A stretch of 64,000 bases of DNA from Eutreptiella sp. 'Long Island Sound 2002'. Lineage: Eukaryota > Euglenozoa > Euglenophyceae > Eutreptiales > Eutreptiaceae. The DNA lies in the NCBI GenBank assembly GCA_964036045.1, contig OZ038380.1:186384298-186448297 (forward strand), given 5' to 3'. Positions 17,679-31,817 of this stretch are shown here, one piece after another. The translations under genes and the position numbers were made by a program. Each line of letters begins with the position of its first letter. Positions within the stretch are counted from its first letter, which is position 1. Below the pieces are notes generated by a model that saw only the letters and a program-made list of their open reading frames with translations, ran no database searches and was not told the DNA's origin.

Positions 17679-17785
17679 ACATACAGCACCCAGTGTTCCC
17701 AAGTGGTCACCCACCTCAGTACTAACTGGGCCTGACCAGGCTTAACCGCTGAAATCGGACGGGCCCAGGTGTATTCCCAGTAGTA
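17679..17785 (-). pseudogene. 5S rRNA, 3' part, interrupted by element
   Basis: Residues 12-118 of the 5S gene remain; the first 11 residues are replaced by the element beginning at 17786. Its 3' end reads CATAC instead of CGTAC, and it carries AACCGCT and GGGCCCAGG changes found in no other copy. With the 5' part at 23088-23155 it duplicates 5S residues 12-68. Confidence 0.88.
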
Positions 17786-17990
17786 CTTGGGCGTCACAAG
17801 TTGCTCACCCTCTAGGACCCCATATACGCGCGATTTGACAATATTCTACATTTCTACTTTGAGTATGTTATTTGACGTATGTGACCAAAGTTGTTGGCAG
17901 AGCTGTGTGACACCCGTTGAAATACGTGTTGATGTGTTAGCCTTGTGTATACCCGTCCTCTAGTGTGTTGTATTTGACGTTTTTCTGAAG

Positions 17991-18291
17991 CTGGCCGAAA
18001 TTTCGGCCAGGTTTTGGGTAACATTGCAAACAACTATGTGTATATGCAGTTTTTGACCCTTCTGGCCGAAATTTCGGCCAGCTTTTTGGTTTCCTGGTGA
18101 ATAGGCATGATTATTTTCATTTTTCTTAGGGCTGGCCGAAATTTCGGCCAGCTTTTTGGTCTGTTCACTATTCAAGCACTTATATTCTGGTTTTTGGGTG
18201 GGCTGGCCGAAATTTCGGCCAGCTTTTCCTATTGTTGAACATGTAAGCAATTATTTCCCCTTTGAACACACCTGGCCGAAATTTCGGCCAG
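17991..18291. repeat. Cluster of five palindromic 20-mers at ~70-bp spacing
   Basis: Five exact copies of CTGGCCGAAATTTCGGCCAG lie at 17991, 18062, 18132, 18203 and 18272. They are separated by 51, 50, 51 and 49 bp of non-matching, T-rich sequence. The cluster ends about 70 bp before the start codon of the first coding block. The spacers share only a tendency to start with CTTTT. The layout resembles a CRISPR array, but no cas-like gene is present and the host is eukaryotic. Confidence 0.93.
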
Positions 18292-18362
18292 CTTGCAATT
18301 GTCGTTGTTCATGAGTATTACACCATACACTGCTACATAACTGTTTTCTTGTCTCAGCATTA

Positions 18363-20572
18363 ATGTCTTCTGCTATTACTGTCAATGTTGTACATGCTGC
18401 AGTTACTGGTGCTTTTGCTACTACAGCCAAAGGGCTGTTGCGAAATGCATTACGTGGTGGGACTCTGCAAAAGCTTTTGCAATTCTGCCTCTTCTTGCGG
18501 AAGAATCGCAGGAGCCGGCACTCCCTGACACAGTTGAAGGCCGCCGCCACTGAGAAGAAGCCCCCACGATGGTACTTGACATTTTTGTCACAGTTCCATG
18601 CCCTATACTGCCTGCTGCGCCGTATGGCCCTCCCATACTCTAACTGTGGGTCTGGTTACAACTGGGGTATTATGTCCTGCCGCCAACGCCGTAAGGTAGG
18701 AGTCCTTGCTCAGTGTAACACTAAGCAGCAGTCCATTCACCATCGTGCTGGACTAGCAGCACACAACTTGTGGAACACCATGCAACGTAGGCAAGTTTGT
18801 ATATGGTTTGATAACCTGAGGCGTTACAGGTCGGGAGCTGATCCCCATTCACCCGACTTAACCCTAAATTGTACAGCTGTTGCTGTTTTGCACACTACTG
18901 CCCTACCTGCATACCGGGGTCTGCCGGAGCTGGCCGAAATTGAGGCCAGGGTACCAAAGGTTGCTGATGACATCTTTCGCTCACACAGAGCATTGTTTGA
19001 TCGTATTGATGTTGCCAACCAAGGTATTCAGAGAGTTTGGGTTCGTGCTCTTTTGGATATTGCCAGAAAAAATGTTCGTTCCCTCAACTGGAGACCCTTC
19101 TTCTTGTCTGAGCTCCGCTCCGGCACACACAAAGATTTTTTTGCAACTCGTGGTTGATTTGTCATGTGTGGAACACCGCACCAGACACTGTGTTCCGCTG
19201 CTTGTGGACATGAAAATACACGTTGCCCTACTTACTGTGTTATGGTGCTGCTTATGTTCCCTGGAATGTACCACAATTACTGTTGGGTTTTCCCTTGGTG
19301 TACGGAGTATGGCATAGCTATAAGTATTGCGTTGAATTGATCTACAGGGCGTTCCTACCGTTCATTAAGTTTTTGGAGCAGGGGAACAGCCTTCAGGTTG
19401 GGTCTATCCTCCCTCGCAAGGTCAAGGTCATCCATATGGAGAAGACGTTGCTTGGACTCATGCTAGCCACATCGTCCAATAGAGGCAGACTAGATGAGCG
19501 CGTCACTTCCCTGCTCAATAGCCAGCGGGACCTGCCACCCATTCAGCGCAAGGGTTTGCGTATTTTATTAGCCCTTAAGGCTTTGCTGTACACATACTGT
19601 CCAGCTGCTTTCAGCATTGGGACTTTGATTCGTGAGTGCAACTGGGAGGGACGGGGGGCAGGTTCCGGTATTGTAGCTAAGCAGGCACTTGAGATGTCCC
19701 TACTGCTCATGCTGAACATCCTAAAGCCCGAGGAACAGTTAACCACGGAGTATGTGAAAACCACCGCTGTTGCTCTTTTGTTTTGGAGTCAGTGGCATTC
19801 CGCCTCCCTAGGGTGTATCCACTCTGAGGAGCTGGGTGAGGCACTTCTGAGTCGGTTCTCAGCCCACTGTCGCCGCAACACTGCCTGTACTAGTGTCCAA
19901 CAGTCGTCTGATTTATTTCTGACACTTCCCCCTGTCCAACCGGGAGAGAAAGTTTTGCGTGGTGTGCTGACTGAGAGATCCGTGGCAATGTTCTCTGCCA
20001 ATCTTAAACAATTCATCTTGACAGCCCATACAAAGAGCCTGCCCATTTGTGTTCCCGTTCCGGACTATAAAGTTGAGGTGAGAAGACTGGATGCAGTTGA
20101 GGGTTTGACGTTTCCAGGTACCATGTCTAGGACACGAATCACCACAGACCGTTTAAAAGTGGTTCTGTTGCATGCAATGCAAAATCTGGTTGCGCGTACC
20201 AGGGTTCTTGAGGGTGTTGAGGATTTTTTACAGACAAATGCACCTGCCCGCACTGCTGCCGAGCAAGGGGTGTTTCGTACTGCACATGCTTCTATTCGCG
20301 CTGCCAACCGTGCACCGCCTACTGCTGCTGCTGCTGCTCCTGGTGGAATTGCCTTGCCCCCAAAGCCACCCCCAAAGCCCCGAGCCAGAGGCCCCCCAGT
20401 ACACCCCCCGGCCCCCCCCCGCCCAGTACCCGCCCCCGCTCTTGATGATTCCATTGCTGTCGACTCTTGTGATAGTGACCAGGATATTGATTGTGATGCA
20501 GACAGCGTTGCCTCCTTTGAAGCCCTAGATGAGGCGGAACAGATCGGTGTGGATACCCAGGATTGGGACTGA
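18363..20572 (+). CDS. Unrecognised element protein, frame broken by two indels
   Basis: Three consecutive reading frames appear to be one gene of about 735 codons. Frame one runs from ATG 18363 into ...SELRSGTHKDFF and stops at 19157. An extra T in the T7 run at 19136-19142 would explain the jump to the frame reading LQLVVDLSCVEH. An extra A in the A4 run at 19213-19216 would explain the return to the frame that stays open to 20572. The N-terminal part is basic, the middle contains WFDNLRRYRSGADP and PLVYGVWHSYKYC, then comes an Ala/Pro-rich linker (about 20300-20440) and an acidic C-terminal tail ending DTQDWD. No catalytic motif was recognised. A degenerate palindrome copy lies in frame at 18930. 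The indels may be mutations or homopolymer sequencing errors; the lack of other stops over 2.2 kb favours recent loss or error. Confidence 0.6.
18930..18949 (+). repeat. Degenerate palindrome copy inside coding sequence
   Basis: CTGGCCGAAATTGAGGCCAG differs from the palindrome only at central positions and reads in frame as LAEIEA within the first coding block. It may be an exonised copy or a chance match under coding constraint. Confidence 0.6.
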
Positions 20573-20664
20573 TTTCTGTTTGCAGCTGTGTTTGTCACTG
20601 TGGTATGGGTTCTGCCACGCATTGCCAGTGATTTTGGTGTGTCTATTTGCTGTTTCATGTTTTT

Positions 20665-20823
20665 CTGGCCGAAATTTCGGCCAGACTTGTTGTTTTGTCA
20701 TATGGCTACCACCAGAACACGAATGACTTAAGGTTCTGGCCGAAATTTCGGCCAGCCTCTCAGAATGGTATTTGTACACAGTGGTTTGACATGCAGAGCA
20801 GTACTGGCCGAAATTTCGGCCAG
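20665..20823. repeat. Second palindrome cluster, three copies
   Basis: Exact copies of the 20-mer lie at 20665, 20736 and 20804, separated by 51 and 48 bp of unique sequence, in the interval between the first and second coding blocks. Spacing equals that of the upstream cluster although the spacer sequences differ. Confidence 0.92.
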
Positions 20824-20942
20824 GTTTTCCGAATTTCCTGTCAGGCAGTCCGTTTTGGTCCTTTTTTGTTTGATCTGTGCTTGTTATTTGCTATCTGGGA
20901 ACTCTCCCCTTCATGAAATGTTGCCCTGTAGCCCTTTATTTT

Positions 20943-22360
20943 ATGACTGAGCCTGGAGGGGTATCGCAGGACATGGCTGTTTCGCCAGATGGTGAGCCTG
21001 CAGCAGACAATGGGCAATCTCAAGTGCAATCCCAGTCTCAAGAGGACCAGGCGAGCACACCGGGACTCCAAAAGATGCCTAAGGCCGCACCAAAGAAAAA
21101 TTCATCATCCTCCATCAAGTTATCCGACTGGGTTACGTCAACGACGAAAATAAAGGTTCGGTGGGATCAGATTATTATCGACCACGACCGAAAATTTGGT
21201 CAGGTCCGTAGGATTTCGGACGATCGCGTGCAACGCCGCTACGACGATCTGAAGGCAGCCCCGCCTGTGGATTACATCCAGGATCTTCTTTTTTATAAAG
21301 TCACTCGTATGTGTGTTGTGGTATTCTTCTCGATAGTACCGTTTTCGCGTCTGAATTTTGGACCCTGCTGTTACGAATATCCCTGTTGCACAGCCACTCG
21401 CTGGGTTCTGTTGGGGGGTCAGCATGTTTACACTGCTGCCCAAAAACACAAGACCGAATTTGAGATGAAAAATATGGAGACTCCGGATTGGACCCTGGTA
21501 TTTGGTGGTTATGAAGTCAAACAGGACTGCCCCCTGCGGACTAGGCGCCGCCTTGCAGGCTTACATCAAATCCAGACCACTGCTGGGTGAGCATCCACCA
21601 CATCGGAGCAAATGTCCCTACTCCTGGATAGGCTTGAGGATGAGGATGCCAATGAGTACACCCTGTACCATCACATTACTGTTATGCTTGAAGAGTGTGG
21701 TGTTACTGCCGAGGAAGGCACTGTGGTGTGTTTCATTTATTAATTGGGTTTTGTCGATCGACCTGGCCGAAATTTTGGCCAGCTTCTGTCTTCCACACGT
21801 TCTCCTGTGCAGAGTGCTGTTGCCAAACGGTGGGGTGGCGTTGGGCGTTTGGTGAAATTTGTGGGTCTTCCTTCAGTAGACGCCATGGCAGCCATGGAAA
21901 AGCGTGGACTACATCCCGCACTGGGTACGTTCAAGGAAGTGGAAGGCATCACGCCTGACCGACTTCGCGAGATCGTAGGTTACATGGATGGGACAAAAAG
22001 TACCCTACCTGGTCTCAAAAAAATTATAAAAGATGTTAACAAGGCCCAGATGTGGTCCTGGCACATTCTTCATCCTGAGGCGGCTACCAATGGGCTTGGG
22101 AACAACACCAGAGGTAAGTTTTGGTCAAACAGGGGTTTGTATTCGAATAAATCGACCGACCTGGCCGAAATTTCGGCCAGCTTGTGTGTCGTTCAATTAA
22201 TGCACAATAGGGGCCCACCCTGTGCTACCACCTGTCTGCAGCTACACTTGGTACTATCGAGATGGCCAAAAGGCAGTGCGCTATTGCATCACACCTGAAG
22301 GTAGCCTATGGCAGTTGGACCTGGACTGAAGAAAACCCCTGGCCCCGTGGTCAGCAGTAA
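20943..22360 (+). CDS. Multi-exon element protein with GGQH (ParB-like?) motif
   Basis: Starts at ATG 20943 (MTEPGGVSQDM). Introns inferred from GT-AG ends and phase: 21307-21393 (87 nt), 21726-21812 (87 nt, holds a palindrome variant) and 22114-22241 (128 nt, holds an exact palindrome). An in-frame TGA at 21588 is removed if 21587-21631 is a 45-nt intron; otherwise an indel is present. The N-terminus is Gln/Ser-rich and low-complexity. The next exon reads RWVLLGGQHVYTAAQKHK and later RRRLAG, reminiscent of the GGQH-x3-A pattern of ParB/sulfiredoxin-fold domains; this is inference from motif only. The last exon ends EENPWPRGQQ then TAA. Alternatively, splicing 22301-22354 joins it in frame to the following block. 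Confidence 0.55.
21763..21782. repeat. Palindrome variant inside intron
   Basis: CTGGCCGAAATTTTGGCCAG, one base off the perfect palindrome, sits in the middle of the 87-nt intron 21726-21812. Confidence 0.85.
22161..22180. repeat. Palindrome inside intron
   Basis: Exact copy of the 20-mer within the intron 22114-22241, 47 nt after the GTAAGT donor. It is preceded by CGATCGAC/CGACCGAC-type sequence, as is the copy at 21763 (TCGATCGAC versus TCGACCGAC), suggesting the two intron copies share a longer origin. Confidence 0.9.
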
Positions 22361-23088
22361 TTAAGGCCCCTCTTTGGAAAGAACCCAAATATGAGGGGTT
22401 GCGGGGATTGTTGCAGAAGCCTGTTGCTAAGCCTGTTTGTGAAAAATCTGATACTGGTCTGGTCAGTATCCAGTGTGCTAGGGAGTCCCTCGTTGAGTCA
22501 AGCACAGGCAAACTCATTGCAGAGTCAGGCCGTGTGGAACTGATGGCAATGCGTTGTGGAGTCCCTGTTCCCAGTATCATTAGTTCACTGCCCTTTGCTG
22601 CTTGTATCATTGAGGTGCCCGGCCTCTATACAGCTGGTTTGCATAACCTGGTTGCGCAGCTGCTTTTGTCCGGTGTGCCTGTGTTCATTGCGGGTGAGTC
22701 TGCTGATGTGAAAGCCACTGTTGCTGCTTTGAAGGCCAGTGTGGCTGAGGATATGTATCAGTGTGATGTTGCACTTTACAATTTGTCAAGCAAGACCCCG
22801 CTGTACACTTCTACGTCCCATCTGGTTTCCATTTGTTCTGCCACTGCCTTTGATAACAGGCTTCCCCGTTACGTGGCTTTTACTGAAGGACCCATGTCGT
22901 CTGTGATGCCTGTTGAAATATTCTCATTTCTTTTGAGCCTGGTTCCGGTCCCAGAACGGGCAGGCAACTGGTTTTTGCTGGGGACTCTGTCTGTGTATTT
23001 TGCAAGCATGATGTGTACCAGGGTTTCCAAGGACTGTAATGTTGTGTGTGCCCTTTTGGGTGAGGAGACTGTTGTGCCCGATGACTAG
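22330..23088 (+). CDS. Third element coding block, possibly end of preceding gene
   Basis: Open for about 250 codons from just after an in-frame TGA at 22327 to TAG at 23086-23088. No ATG lies near its start; the first in-frame ATGs are around 22543. It therefore probably continues the preceding gene, either through a 54-nt GT-AG intron (22301-22354) that would remove the TGA and keep frame, or after an indel. The product is soluble-looking, with hydrophobic alternations such as SLPFAACIIEVPGLYTAG and LSVYFASMMCTRV, and ends EETVVPDD. Family not recognised. The stop codon overlaps the first base of the right 5S fragment, so the natural 3' end of the gene may be missing. Confidence 0.55.
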   Translation, partial: RKPLAPWSAVIKAPLWKEPKYEGLRGLLQKPVAKPVCEKSDTGLVSIQCARESLVESSTGKLIAESGRVELMAMRCGVPVPSIISSLPFAACIIEVPGLYTAGLHNLVAQLLLSGVPVFIAGESADVKATVAALKASVAEDMYQCDVALYNLSSKTPLYTSTSHLVSICSATAFDNRLPRYVAFTEGPMSSVMPVEIFSFLLSLVPVPERAGNWFLLGTLSVYFASMMCTRVSKDCNVVCALLGEETVVPDD

Positions 23089-23155
23089 GCCTGACCAGGC
23101 ATAACTGCTGAAATCGGACGGGTTCAGGTGTATTCCCAGTAGTATGGCCGTACGC
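23088..23155 (-). pseudogene. 5S rRNA, 5' part, right of element
   Basis: Residues 1-68 of the 5S gene. It carries the CATAAC variant (consensus CTTAAC), which occurs in copies 15, 16 and 20-23 but not in the left fragment, so the two sides of the element belong to different sequence subfamilies. Confidence 0.88.
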
Positions 23156-30180: not shown

Positions 30181-30192
30181 CCATCCCCCCGT
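30181..30192. repeat. Left target-site duplication of non-LTR insertion
   Basis: CCATCCCCCCGT, normal spacer sequence, is repeated exactly at 31818-31829 on the other side of the insertion. Confidence 0.85.
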
Positions 30193-31395
30193 GTCCCAGC
30201 ACAGCATGACAGCCACGCCACTCACCTCCTGGCGATCCTCAACCGGGAATCCCATCAGTTGGCAGCCCGCGGGGCCGCTGCCCCCACCCCCTGGGCAGTG
30301 CCCCTGCCCCACCTCCTCCCTGACCCCCTCGTTCTGCACTACCGCGGCAGCATGCTCGTGGAGCCGCAATTGGGTCTGGACGCGGCCTACGATGCCACCA
30401 CCACCTCCGCCTACTTCTCCGGCCGTCGAGCTCATCTCCTTCGCCCCGATGGTACGATTTTCCACGAACTGCTGGAAGCGGACGACATCCCAACCCGTGC
30501 CATCAAGCGCGCCCTTGCATACCGGGTGCTCGAATGGCAACCGCCCCCGGAGCCAAACATCCCCATGGAGTGCCACTTCTGCGGCGCCGCCGAGCACCAA
30601 CTCTGGCGCCACGTCCGCAGCCGGTGCCCCGCGGCCTTCCTCCATCTTCGCCGTGCCCAAGCCCTCCTCCTCCACGCCACGACCCCCACTCCAGCCGCCA
30701 CCGTCACGGGGGACGGACACCTACTCGACGGTCAAGGGCGGCCGGTACTGAGCTGTACATGGGACTCACACTTCACGTCAGAGGACGCCGGCATGGGTGA
30801 CGTCCTCACTCTCTCCGGCCTATGGTACGCTTCCCCCGATGGGGGTGGGGCCTTCCTCACCGCGGCCACTCGGCGCCGCATAACGAAGGACGTAGTAAGT
30901 GCCCTGGCCCAGCCAGTCCTGACCCCCTCTGACCTCCTAGCCCTCTGGGCCACACTCCCGTATCCTCACCGCACGCCGGACCAGCCCCCGCCGCAACCTC
31001 CCACGGTCTCCGTGCTGGATCACCAGAGCTACCTACCGTGGGACTACTCCCTGGTCACGGCTTACCTGGTGCGGGGTCTGCCGTCCTGGCAAGTGCGCTG
31101 TGCAGCACAGCTAAATATTTCCCTGCCTGTAGAGCCCCAGTGGCACCATGGAGCCCCAGTGCTCCTCATCGTCGCGCCGCCGGCGGCTTTATATTGGGCC
31201 CTTGCCCTGCTTGCCCAGGCTGGTGTACCTCCCCTGTGGGCTGGCGTAGCCTTGCTCACGGCTGTGCCCCCAGGAGACAGCACCCTGGCGCTGCCCCAGC
31301 TCATGACTCCGTATGCCTGTGGCACGCTGTGGGTGTACACCACAGCAGGTGTGTCCCACCGCTGGGCCCTCGCGCCCGCCGCCGCGACTCAGTGA
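30193..31395 (+). pseudogene. C-terminal part of a retrotransposon ORF
   Basis: About 400 codons, open from the left junction (fused by chance to a spacer frame) to TGA at 31393-31395. A CCHC-type cysteine-histidine motif, CHFCGAAEHQLWRHVRSRCP, is encoded about 120 codons from the junction; such motifs are common downstream of the reverse transcriptase domain in non-LTR elements. The remainder (for example DAGMGDVLTLSGLWYASPDG and VSVLDHQSYLPWDYSLVTAY) was not recognised. About 420 bp of apparent 3' untranslated sequence follow before the tail. Assignment to non-LTR elements rests on the motif plus the insertion structure. Confidence 0.55.
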
Positions 31396-31817
31396 CGAGC
31401 CGCCGAAACGCCGTGGCGTCCCCGTGTTGTGCCAGTGTAGGGCCGGCAGAGGTAAGTCAGAGCCCCCCCCCCCCCAGAGCCCAGAGCAAGGGGTTGAGCC
31501 CAGCCTAGGGACCCCCCCCTGCGTGACTGACTGGTCCGGGGCCGGGCCAGGCGCGGCACTGCCGTGTGACCCGACGTGCCTCGCAGCCCAGCCAGTCCAC
31601 GCCCCACACCCACCTGCAGCGCGCGCGCCCCATACACACAGGTACGGCGGCATCTCCCTCCCGCGTGTGCCACCGCGGGGTACGGGGGCGGTCATCAGTC
31701 CGGTAGGCCTTGAGACCGGACAACCGAGCACCCACCGGACCAGATGTGACGCGCAGGGAAGGGCGACGTCCGTGGTCCCGGAGGTCCGGATGAGGCCTTG
31801 ACCCAACCCAACCCAAA
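30193..31817 (+). mobile_element. 5'-truncated non-LTR retrotransposon
   Basis: A 1625-bp insertion in a 5S spacer, bounded by the 12-bp duplication CCATCCCCCCGT. The 3' end is a short tandem tail (ACCCA repeats then AA) directly before the duplication. The 5' end starts in mid-protein. These are the marks of target-primed reverse transcription of a 5'-truncated copy. The reverse transcriptase and endonuclease core would lie upstream and are missing here. Confidence 0.75.

Follow-up and report, generated by a model that had tools for sequence, protein, structure and literature searches.

A constrained 20-bp palindrome in arrays of about 70-bp period as a probable recognition site of an unclassified DNA transposon in Eutreptiella

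Why should a perfect 20-bp palindrome recur at an almost constant interval, with apparently unrelated DNA in between? This question is raised by a locus of the euglenophyte Eutreptiella sp. 'Long Island Sound 2002', which lies in a stretch of 64,000 nucleotides of contig OZ038380.1 (assembly GCA_964036045.1, positions 186,384,298 to 186,448,297 of the forward strand), hereafter called the window. The palindrome, CTGGCCGAAATTTCGGCCAG, occurs in the window as nine exact copies and, at 21763, as one copy with a single mismatch, all at the places listed in the original prediction; a further copy with two mismatches at 18930, within an open reading frame (ORF), was absent from that list (Table 1). 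The gaps are 71, 70, 71 and 69 bp in an array of five palindromes and 71 and 68 bp in an array of three, leaving spacers of 48-51 bp. No palindrome match appeared in 100 dinucleotide shuffles of the window. Genome-wide (2.28 Gb), the exact 20-mer was found 6,168 times and with at most one mismatch 9,307 times, whereas the same 20-mer written backwards as a control had no genome matches. The preferred spacing of about 70 bp, also predicted originally, was borne out in the first 50 exact places listed, where every one of the 18 gaps shorter than 130 bp measured 68-72 bp. We propose that the palindrome probably serves, in an unclassified DNA transposon with terminal inverted repeats (TIRs), as a conserved recognition site acting in cis, bound by a putative dimeric DNA-binding protein that the element itself encodes.

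The palindromes belong to a TIR DNA transposon of about 6.5 kb with two genes. The full copy, L027, is 6,530 bp long and comprises 25-bp TIRs (CTTAGGC...), ORF1, ORF2 and 13 perfect palindromes, located at element positions 206, 277, 347, 418 and 487 (5' of ORF1), 2881, 2952 and 3020 (between the ORFs), 3979 and 4377 (in introns), and 5786, 6019 and 6090 (3' of ORF2). All 13 lie outside the modelled coding exons, and ORF1 holds an additional two-mismatch copy; this variant, the one seen at 18930, occurred 20 times with the same flanks in 21 other loci of this family, termed A. Both ends are also present in L025, L026, L029, L030, L031 and L045, the last a copy of a second family, B. Six of the seven two-ended copies are flanked by perfect 5-bp target site duplications (TSDs; TCCTA, GGCTA, AAAAA, ACGAT, TACTA and AAATG), and in L031 four of the five bases agree. 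With these TIRs and TSDs the element is a class II TIR DNA transposon. No Pfam or NCBIfam model matched, and the element may represent a new superfamily. The window copy is 98% identical to the two-ended copies L025-L027 up to position 23086, and remnants of a 5S rRNA gene flank it at 17679-17798 and 23073-23155. A eukaryotic mobile element with introns, as originally supposed, is supported.

The palindromes are under constraint. Across 21 family-A copies, mostly partial, 1.10% of palindrome bases (41/3739) differed from L027, less than in the array spacers (2.53%, 153/6051; p=4e-7) or in other non-coding DNA (2.01%, 210/10448; p=2e-4); the corresponding values were 1.59% (25/1571) for introns and 1.19% (814/68164) for coding bases. 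Aligned pieces shorter than 300 bp (200 bp for L030) were left out of these comparisons, in which L012 and L013 are almost one and the same copy. Comparison of family A with L030, a member of a third family, C, yielded a divergence of 5.9% (13/220) in the palindromes and 28.1% (96/342) in the spacers (p=8e-12), with 21.4% (86/402) in coding and 21.7% in other DNA.

Family B, whose ORF1 is 42-50% identical to that of A (77 genome matches) and whose TIR is CTTAGGCCACGCTAACTACCC, carries the palindrome CTGGGCGAAATTTCGCCCAG, in which one base pair per arm is swapped symmetrically relative to A. Among 59 B sites, selected for having no more than five mismatches to the A site, position 5 had changed from C to G in 54 and position 16 from G to C in 40. 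An unbiased search of 12 B loci revealed GGCGAAATTTCGCC as the sole recurrent perfect 14-bp palindrome (13 times; four others occurred once each), and B loci gave 62 matches within five mismatches versus 0 or 1 for 12 random palindromes matched in composition. Genome-wide, the B site with the symmetric double change had 127 exact matches and the one-sided form 47. That a strongly kept dyad has changed symmetrically throughout the element is in keeping with coevolution of the site and a dimeric DNA-binding protein.

The arrangement of the B sites resembles that in A. In the 12 loci, 40 gaps were shorter than 160 bp, and 27 of these measured 69-70 bp. The first site lay 207 bp from the TIR start in seven (206 bp in A and C, as read from L027 and L030), 204, 213 and 181 bp from it in three, and was not detected in two. 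The intergenic pair is mostly 70 bp apart. In two copies a 3' pair, 69 bp apart, lies 430-436 bp short of the right end, and in one copy, L054, a site is located where A has its site in the third intron. The 5' non-coding DNA of one B copy aligned to A at the palindromes only, barring matches with E >=1.5. Two in-register spacers tested showed no similarity between A and B (z 0.7 and 1.2), and the block from the TIR to the first site showed faint similarity only (z 3.5). The B copy at L045:1213-3854 (the same place as L034) has both TIRs and an open ORF1, with no ORF2 match and no sites after ORF1.

L030 of family C is 3.9 kb long, has the same TIRs as A at both ends and is about 80% identical to A where alignable. 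It is without ORF1 and most of ORF2, of which the first exon region is kept, yet it carries arrays toward both ends, with a total of 31 sites at up to six mismatches, 11 of them exact. Retention of both TIRs and many sites in such a copy is expected if the sites are required in cis for transposition. The family-C piece of ORF2 was found at no fewer than 150 places, and eight of these, read for 3.5 kb, contained 24 to 29 sites within three mismatches. At L030:2719-3204 and about 150 more places, short family-C elements preserve the first ORF2 domain as an open frame that continues through the retained intron and its palindrome.

The spacers had been described as unrelated. This holds for the two intergenic spacers, which have no mutual similarity, but not for the four 5' spacers, which in the pairs printed agree in register at about half to three fifths of the aligned positions. 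Their similarity exceeded that of dinucleotide shuffles (z 6.3) and rotations (z 4.2), with 0/1000 in each control, and was not significant against random non-coding windows of the element (59/1000), a null widened by overlapping windows. Given this faint in-register relation, the 5' array appears to have arisen partly by tandem duplication of units of about 70 bp, now decayed, in line with the larger repeated unit that the original prediction had offered as one explanation; placement looks inherited and not active. Spacers are homologous among family-A copies and between A and C, and in family-C arrays the period varies from 62 to 79 bp. At 10.5 bp per helical turn, a period of 69-71 bp does not amount to an integral number of turns, so binding on the same face of the DNA is not indicated.

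We infer that a dimeric protein made by the element would recognise the dyad in arrays close to either end, in the intergenic region and within introns, and ORF2 would be a likelier source of it than ORF1. Binding might lead to assembly of a transposition complex, to repression of element transcription, or to both, as with TNPA on En/Spm. The period of about 70 bp would have begun at least partly by tandem duplication of a palindrome-bearing unit; the spacers would then have drifted while the palindromes were kept, and later the site and the protein may have changed together between families. Among the roles originally suggested, a site for a dimeric element-encoded protein fits best, as a putative role, with the constraint on the palindromes and the symmetric change between A and B.

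Several observations weigh against this proposal. Within family A the variation of the palindromes is not below that of coding DNA (p=0.64), nor significantly below that of introns (p=0.14). Six of the 13 sites in L027 are internal instead of subterminal, and the symmetry is imperfect in the majority of the 5' and 3' sites of B. Blocks outside the arrays are also conserved in length between A and C, and the constant spacing may reflect a low rate of insertions and deletions. The truncated ORF2 piece in C showed no selection, with a ratio of nonsynonymous to synonymous polymorphism (pN/pS) of 0.96 in 19 of 20 retrieved copies (L060 was dropped), taken from the lower part of the protein-score ranking. 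Searches of Pfam, NCBIfam and the PDB recognised no DNA-binding domain in ORF1 or in the parts of ORF2 scanned.

ORF1 has at least 109 genome matches. It matched no Pfam or NCBIfam model, including those of DDE-type transposases, and no Pfam family, the Tnp2 transposase domain included, even at E up to 10, where the HMMER filters discard most weak matches. Its structure prediction from 20 sequences reached a predicted local distance difference test (pLDDT) score of 34.6, too low for fold searches. ORF2 was modelled from the sequence alone, with three GT-AG introns; the intron positions predicted for the palindromes at 21763 and 22161 agree with this model, which places both inside apparent introns. 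The parts of ORF2 scanned, including the spliced N-terminal part, had no Pfam or NCBIfam match, and a 790-aa model still holding intron 1 yielded no homologue. Exon 1 read through intron 1 gave 41 protein matches, all from sources marked 'ena'. A PDB search returned one match for ORF1 (E 9.6) and four for the N-terminal part of ORF2 (E 0.32-1.2), none of which is ParB. The ParB-like label of ORF2, an impression gained by eye, is thus unsupported by family or PDB searches. Two contigs of 4,748 and 2,501 bp (P0053 and P0056), perhaps from other organisms, encode products with about 31-32% identity to ORF1.

Other explanations of the palindromes were weighed against the proposed protein-binding site. 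RNA hairpins with an 8-bp stem and an AAUU loop, acting in element transcripts to govern splicing, processing or stability, are in our judgement unlikely. The A palindrome is predicted to fold strongly (-13.9 kcal/mol, z about -5), sites stand in presumed untranslated regions and introns, and the change from A to B keeps the pairing too. However, many B and C sites retain one arm and the centre and lose the pairing; two such variants fold with only -3.6 and -5.3 kcal/mol, which speaks against selection for RNA structure. In B, conservation of the putative loop AATT (57 to 59 of 59 sites at each position) equals or exceeds that of the stem, and L030, which codes for little, has expanded arrays toward both ends. 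Binding by a host protein (a chromatin, replication or transcription factor) instead of an element-encoded one is likewise improbable. It would agree with the failure to recognise a binding domain in either ORF, and 6,168 exact sites would suit an abundant host factor; yet A and B carry differing matched palindromes in one genome, for which family-specific element proteins are a better fit, and all six places chosen by the palindrome alone and read (L001-L004, L030 and L031) lie within these transposons.

The register-dependent similarity of the 5' spacers might also be taken to mean that the arrays are old satellite repeats in tandem that serve no function. We consider this very unlikely, as the palindromes diverge far less than the spacers, have changed symmetrically between families, and occur also singly in introns and between genes, where the two spacers are dissimilar. 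Active placement or introner-type seeding, the analogy drawn originally with CRISPR arrays and introners, can call on the constant spacing and on the two intron sites but is scarcely credible: the positions are common to the family-A copies read and largely to A, B and C, and are thus inherited with the element. Only two of the 13 L027 sites are in introns and 11 lie outside them, so an introner element was rejected. A CRISPR-like archive was ruled out by the homology of spacers across family-A copies and C.

Comparison with known systems leaves the transposon apart from each of them. CRISPR arrays combine a palindromic repeat and even spacing with unrelated, individually acquired spacers. The repeat and the even spacing are alike here, whereas the spacers are homologous between copies and with C, the positions are inherited, and the sites are scattered through the element; family scans of the element ORFs found neither a Cas protein nor any other domain. 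In bacterial ParB-parS systems, a palindromic site occurs in several copies near genes. The present locus shares a multi-copy palindrome near genes and a proposed dimeric binder but differs in its transposon context and in an ORF2 without ParB match (Pfam, NCBIfam) or significant PDB match; general family scans of the two ORFs, none aimed at ParA, found no ParA partner. Baculovirus hr regions consist of imperfect palindromes in units of about 70 bp that serve as enhancer and origin sites. The likeness to them, in palindromes and unit length, is one of description and not of sequence, and the TIRs and TSDs of a transposon set the present element apart. To our knowledge, the closest studied mechanism is that of TNPA on the subterminal repeats of En/Spm. 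Similar to CACTA (En/Spm) elements, the A, B and C copies read are TIR DNA transposons with a short motif repeated near both ends. The TIR begins with CTTAGGC and not CACTA, the TSD is 5 bp instead of 3, and each site is a 20-bp palindrome with a period of about 70 bp that is also found between genes and in introns. Membership of CACTA/EnSpm was rejected on the TIR, the TSD and the transposase, although the repeated subterminal motif is shared. According to passages of a report on soybean CACTA elements (PMC2613891), TNPA, the second element protein, recognises subterminal motifs in Spm/En, and two soybean subfamilies differ both in subterminal motifs, which can form palindromes, and in transposases. 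Our literature search recognised no element as the same, most subscription papers being outside its scope.

The two arms of the B sites differ in their mismatches. At the four 5' sites the mean number of mismatches was 0.30-0.82 in the left arm versus 1.30-2.64 in the right. The 3' sites, of which two elements supplied four copies, showed the reverse (2.50 versus 0.25). For the intergenic sites the means were 0.72 and 0.28, and the single intron site had 2 and 0. L030 shows a similar trend, although its 3' array partly repeats its 5' array in inverted orientation. This arm polarity in B and C is no more than suggestive, as the copies share ancestry. A wider interpretation, which we regard as tentative and rather doubtful, is that the elements form a new eukaryotic DNA-transposon superfamily, of which this one genome holds no fewer than three families or subfamilies. 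The product of the second gene would be a dimeric DNA-binding protein of a new kind, coevolving with the dispersed array of 20-bp palindromes; the arm toward the nearer transposon end, kept in B and C while the inner arm is relaxed, would then suggest an oriented assembly from the ends inward.

The window itself is a tandem 5S rRNA array of units of about 1.13 kb (30 Rfam matches), extending from 6486 to 45225. The units hold a spliced-leader (SL)-like sequence, the reverse complement of CGAAAAAAAATAGACACTCAAGAAGTGT, with 25 matches at up to three mismatches; it shares its strand with the 5S genes, and we take it to resemble the Euglena leader. Passages of a study of Euglena (PMC2784804) describe linked SL RNA and 5S genes in 0.6-kb tandem repeats of one orientation, so that the unit here is longer than the 0.6 kb reported there for E. 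gracilis (PMC2784804). This linkage and the 5S sequence would point to a euglenid host. A second GC-rich insertion in the array, at 30190-31810, has an open frame in which a Cys/His motif resembling a zinc knuckle can be made out by eye; the insertion is possibly the 3' part of a retroelement.

Table 1. Coordinates of the transposon copy and its palindromes in the window.
Feature	Position	Strand	Remarks
Truncated family-A TIR transposon copy in a 5S rRNA gene of the 5S/SL-RNA array	17786..23085	+	right end missing
Left terminal inverted repeat, CTTGGGCGTCACAAGTTGC...	17786..17810	+	2 differences in 20 vs CTTAGGCGTCACAAGTTGCC
5' array, five perfect 20-bp palindromes	17991..18291	.	17991, 18062, 18132, 18203, 18272; period 69-71 bp; positions common to other copies
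ORF1	18363..20572	+	736 aa from ATG in L027; window frame broken between ~19157 and 19214; no known domain
Variant palindrome CTGGCCGAAATTGAGGCCAG in ORF1 coding sequence	18930..18949	.	two mismatches
Array of three perfect palindromes in the ORF1-ORF2 intergenic region	20665..20823	.	20665, 20736, 20804
ORF2, multi-exon, cut off in window	20943..23085	+	spliced model 761 aa in L027; window in-frame stop at 21588; no known domain
ORF2 intron 1	21307..21393	+	GT-AG by inspection, modelled on L027, same boundaries in window; without palindrome in family A
ORF2 intron 2	21726..21812	+	contains palindrome 21763 (one mismatch)
ORF2 intron 3	22114..22241	+	contains perfect palindrome 22161; site at same intron position in one family-B copy

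Found in a eukaryotic group that has been little explored, the transposon has no match among the curated families searched, and it supplies thousands of identical palindromes to the chromosomes of its host. As the site and its binder have presumably changed together within one genome, the evolution of binding specificity would be open to experimental test in these families.

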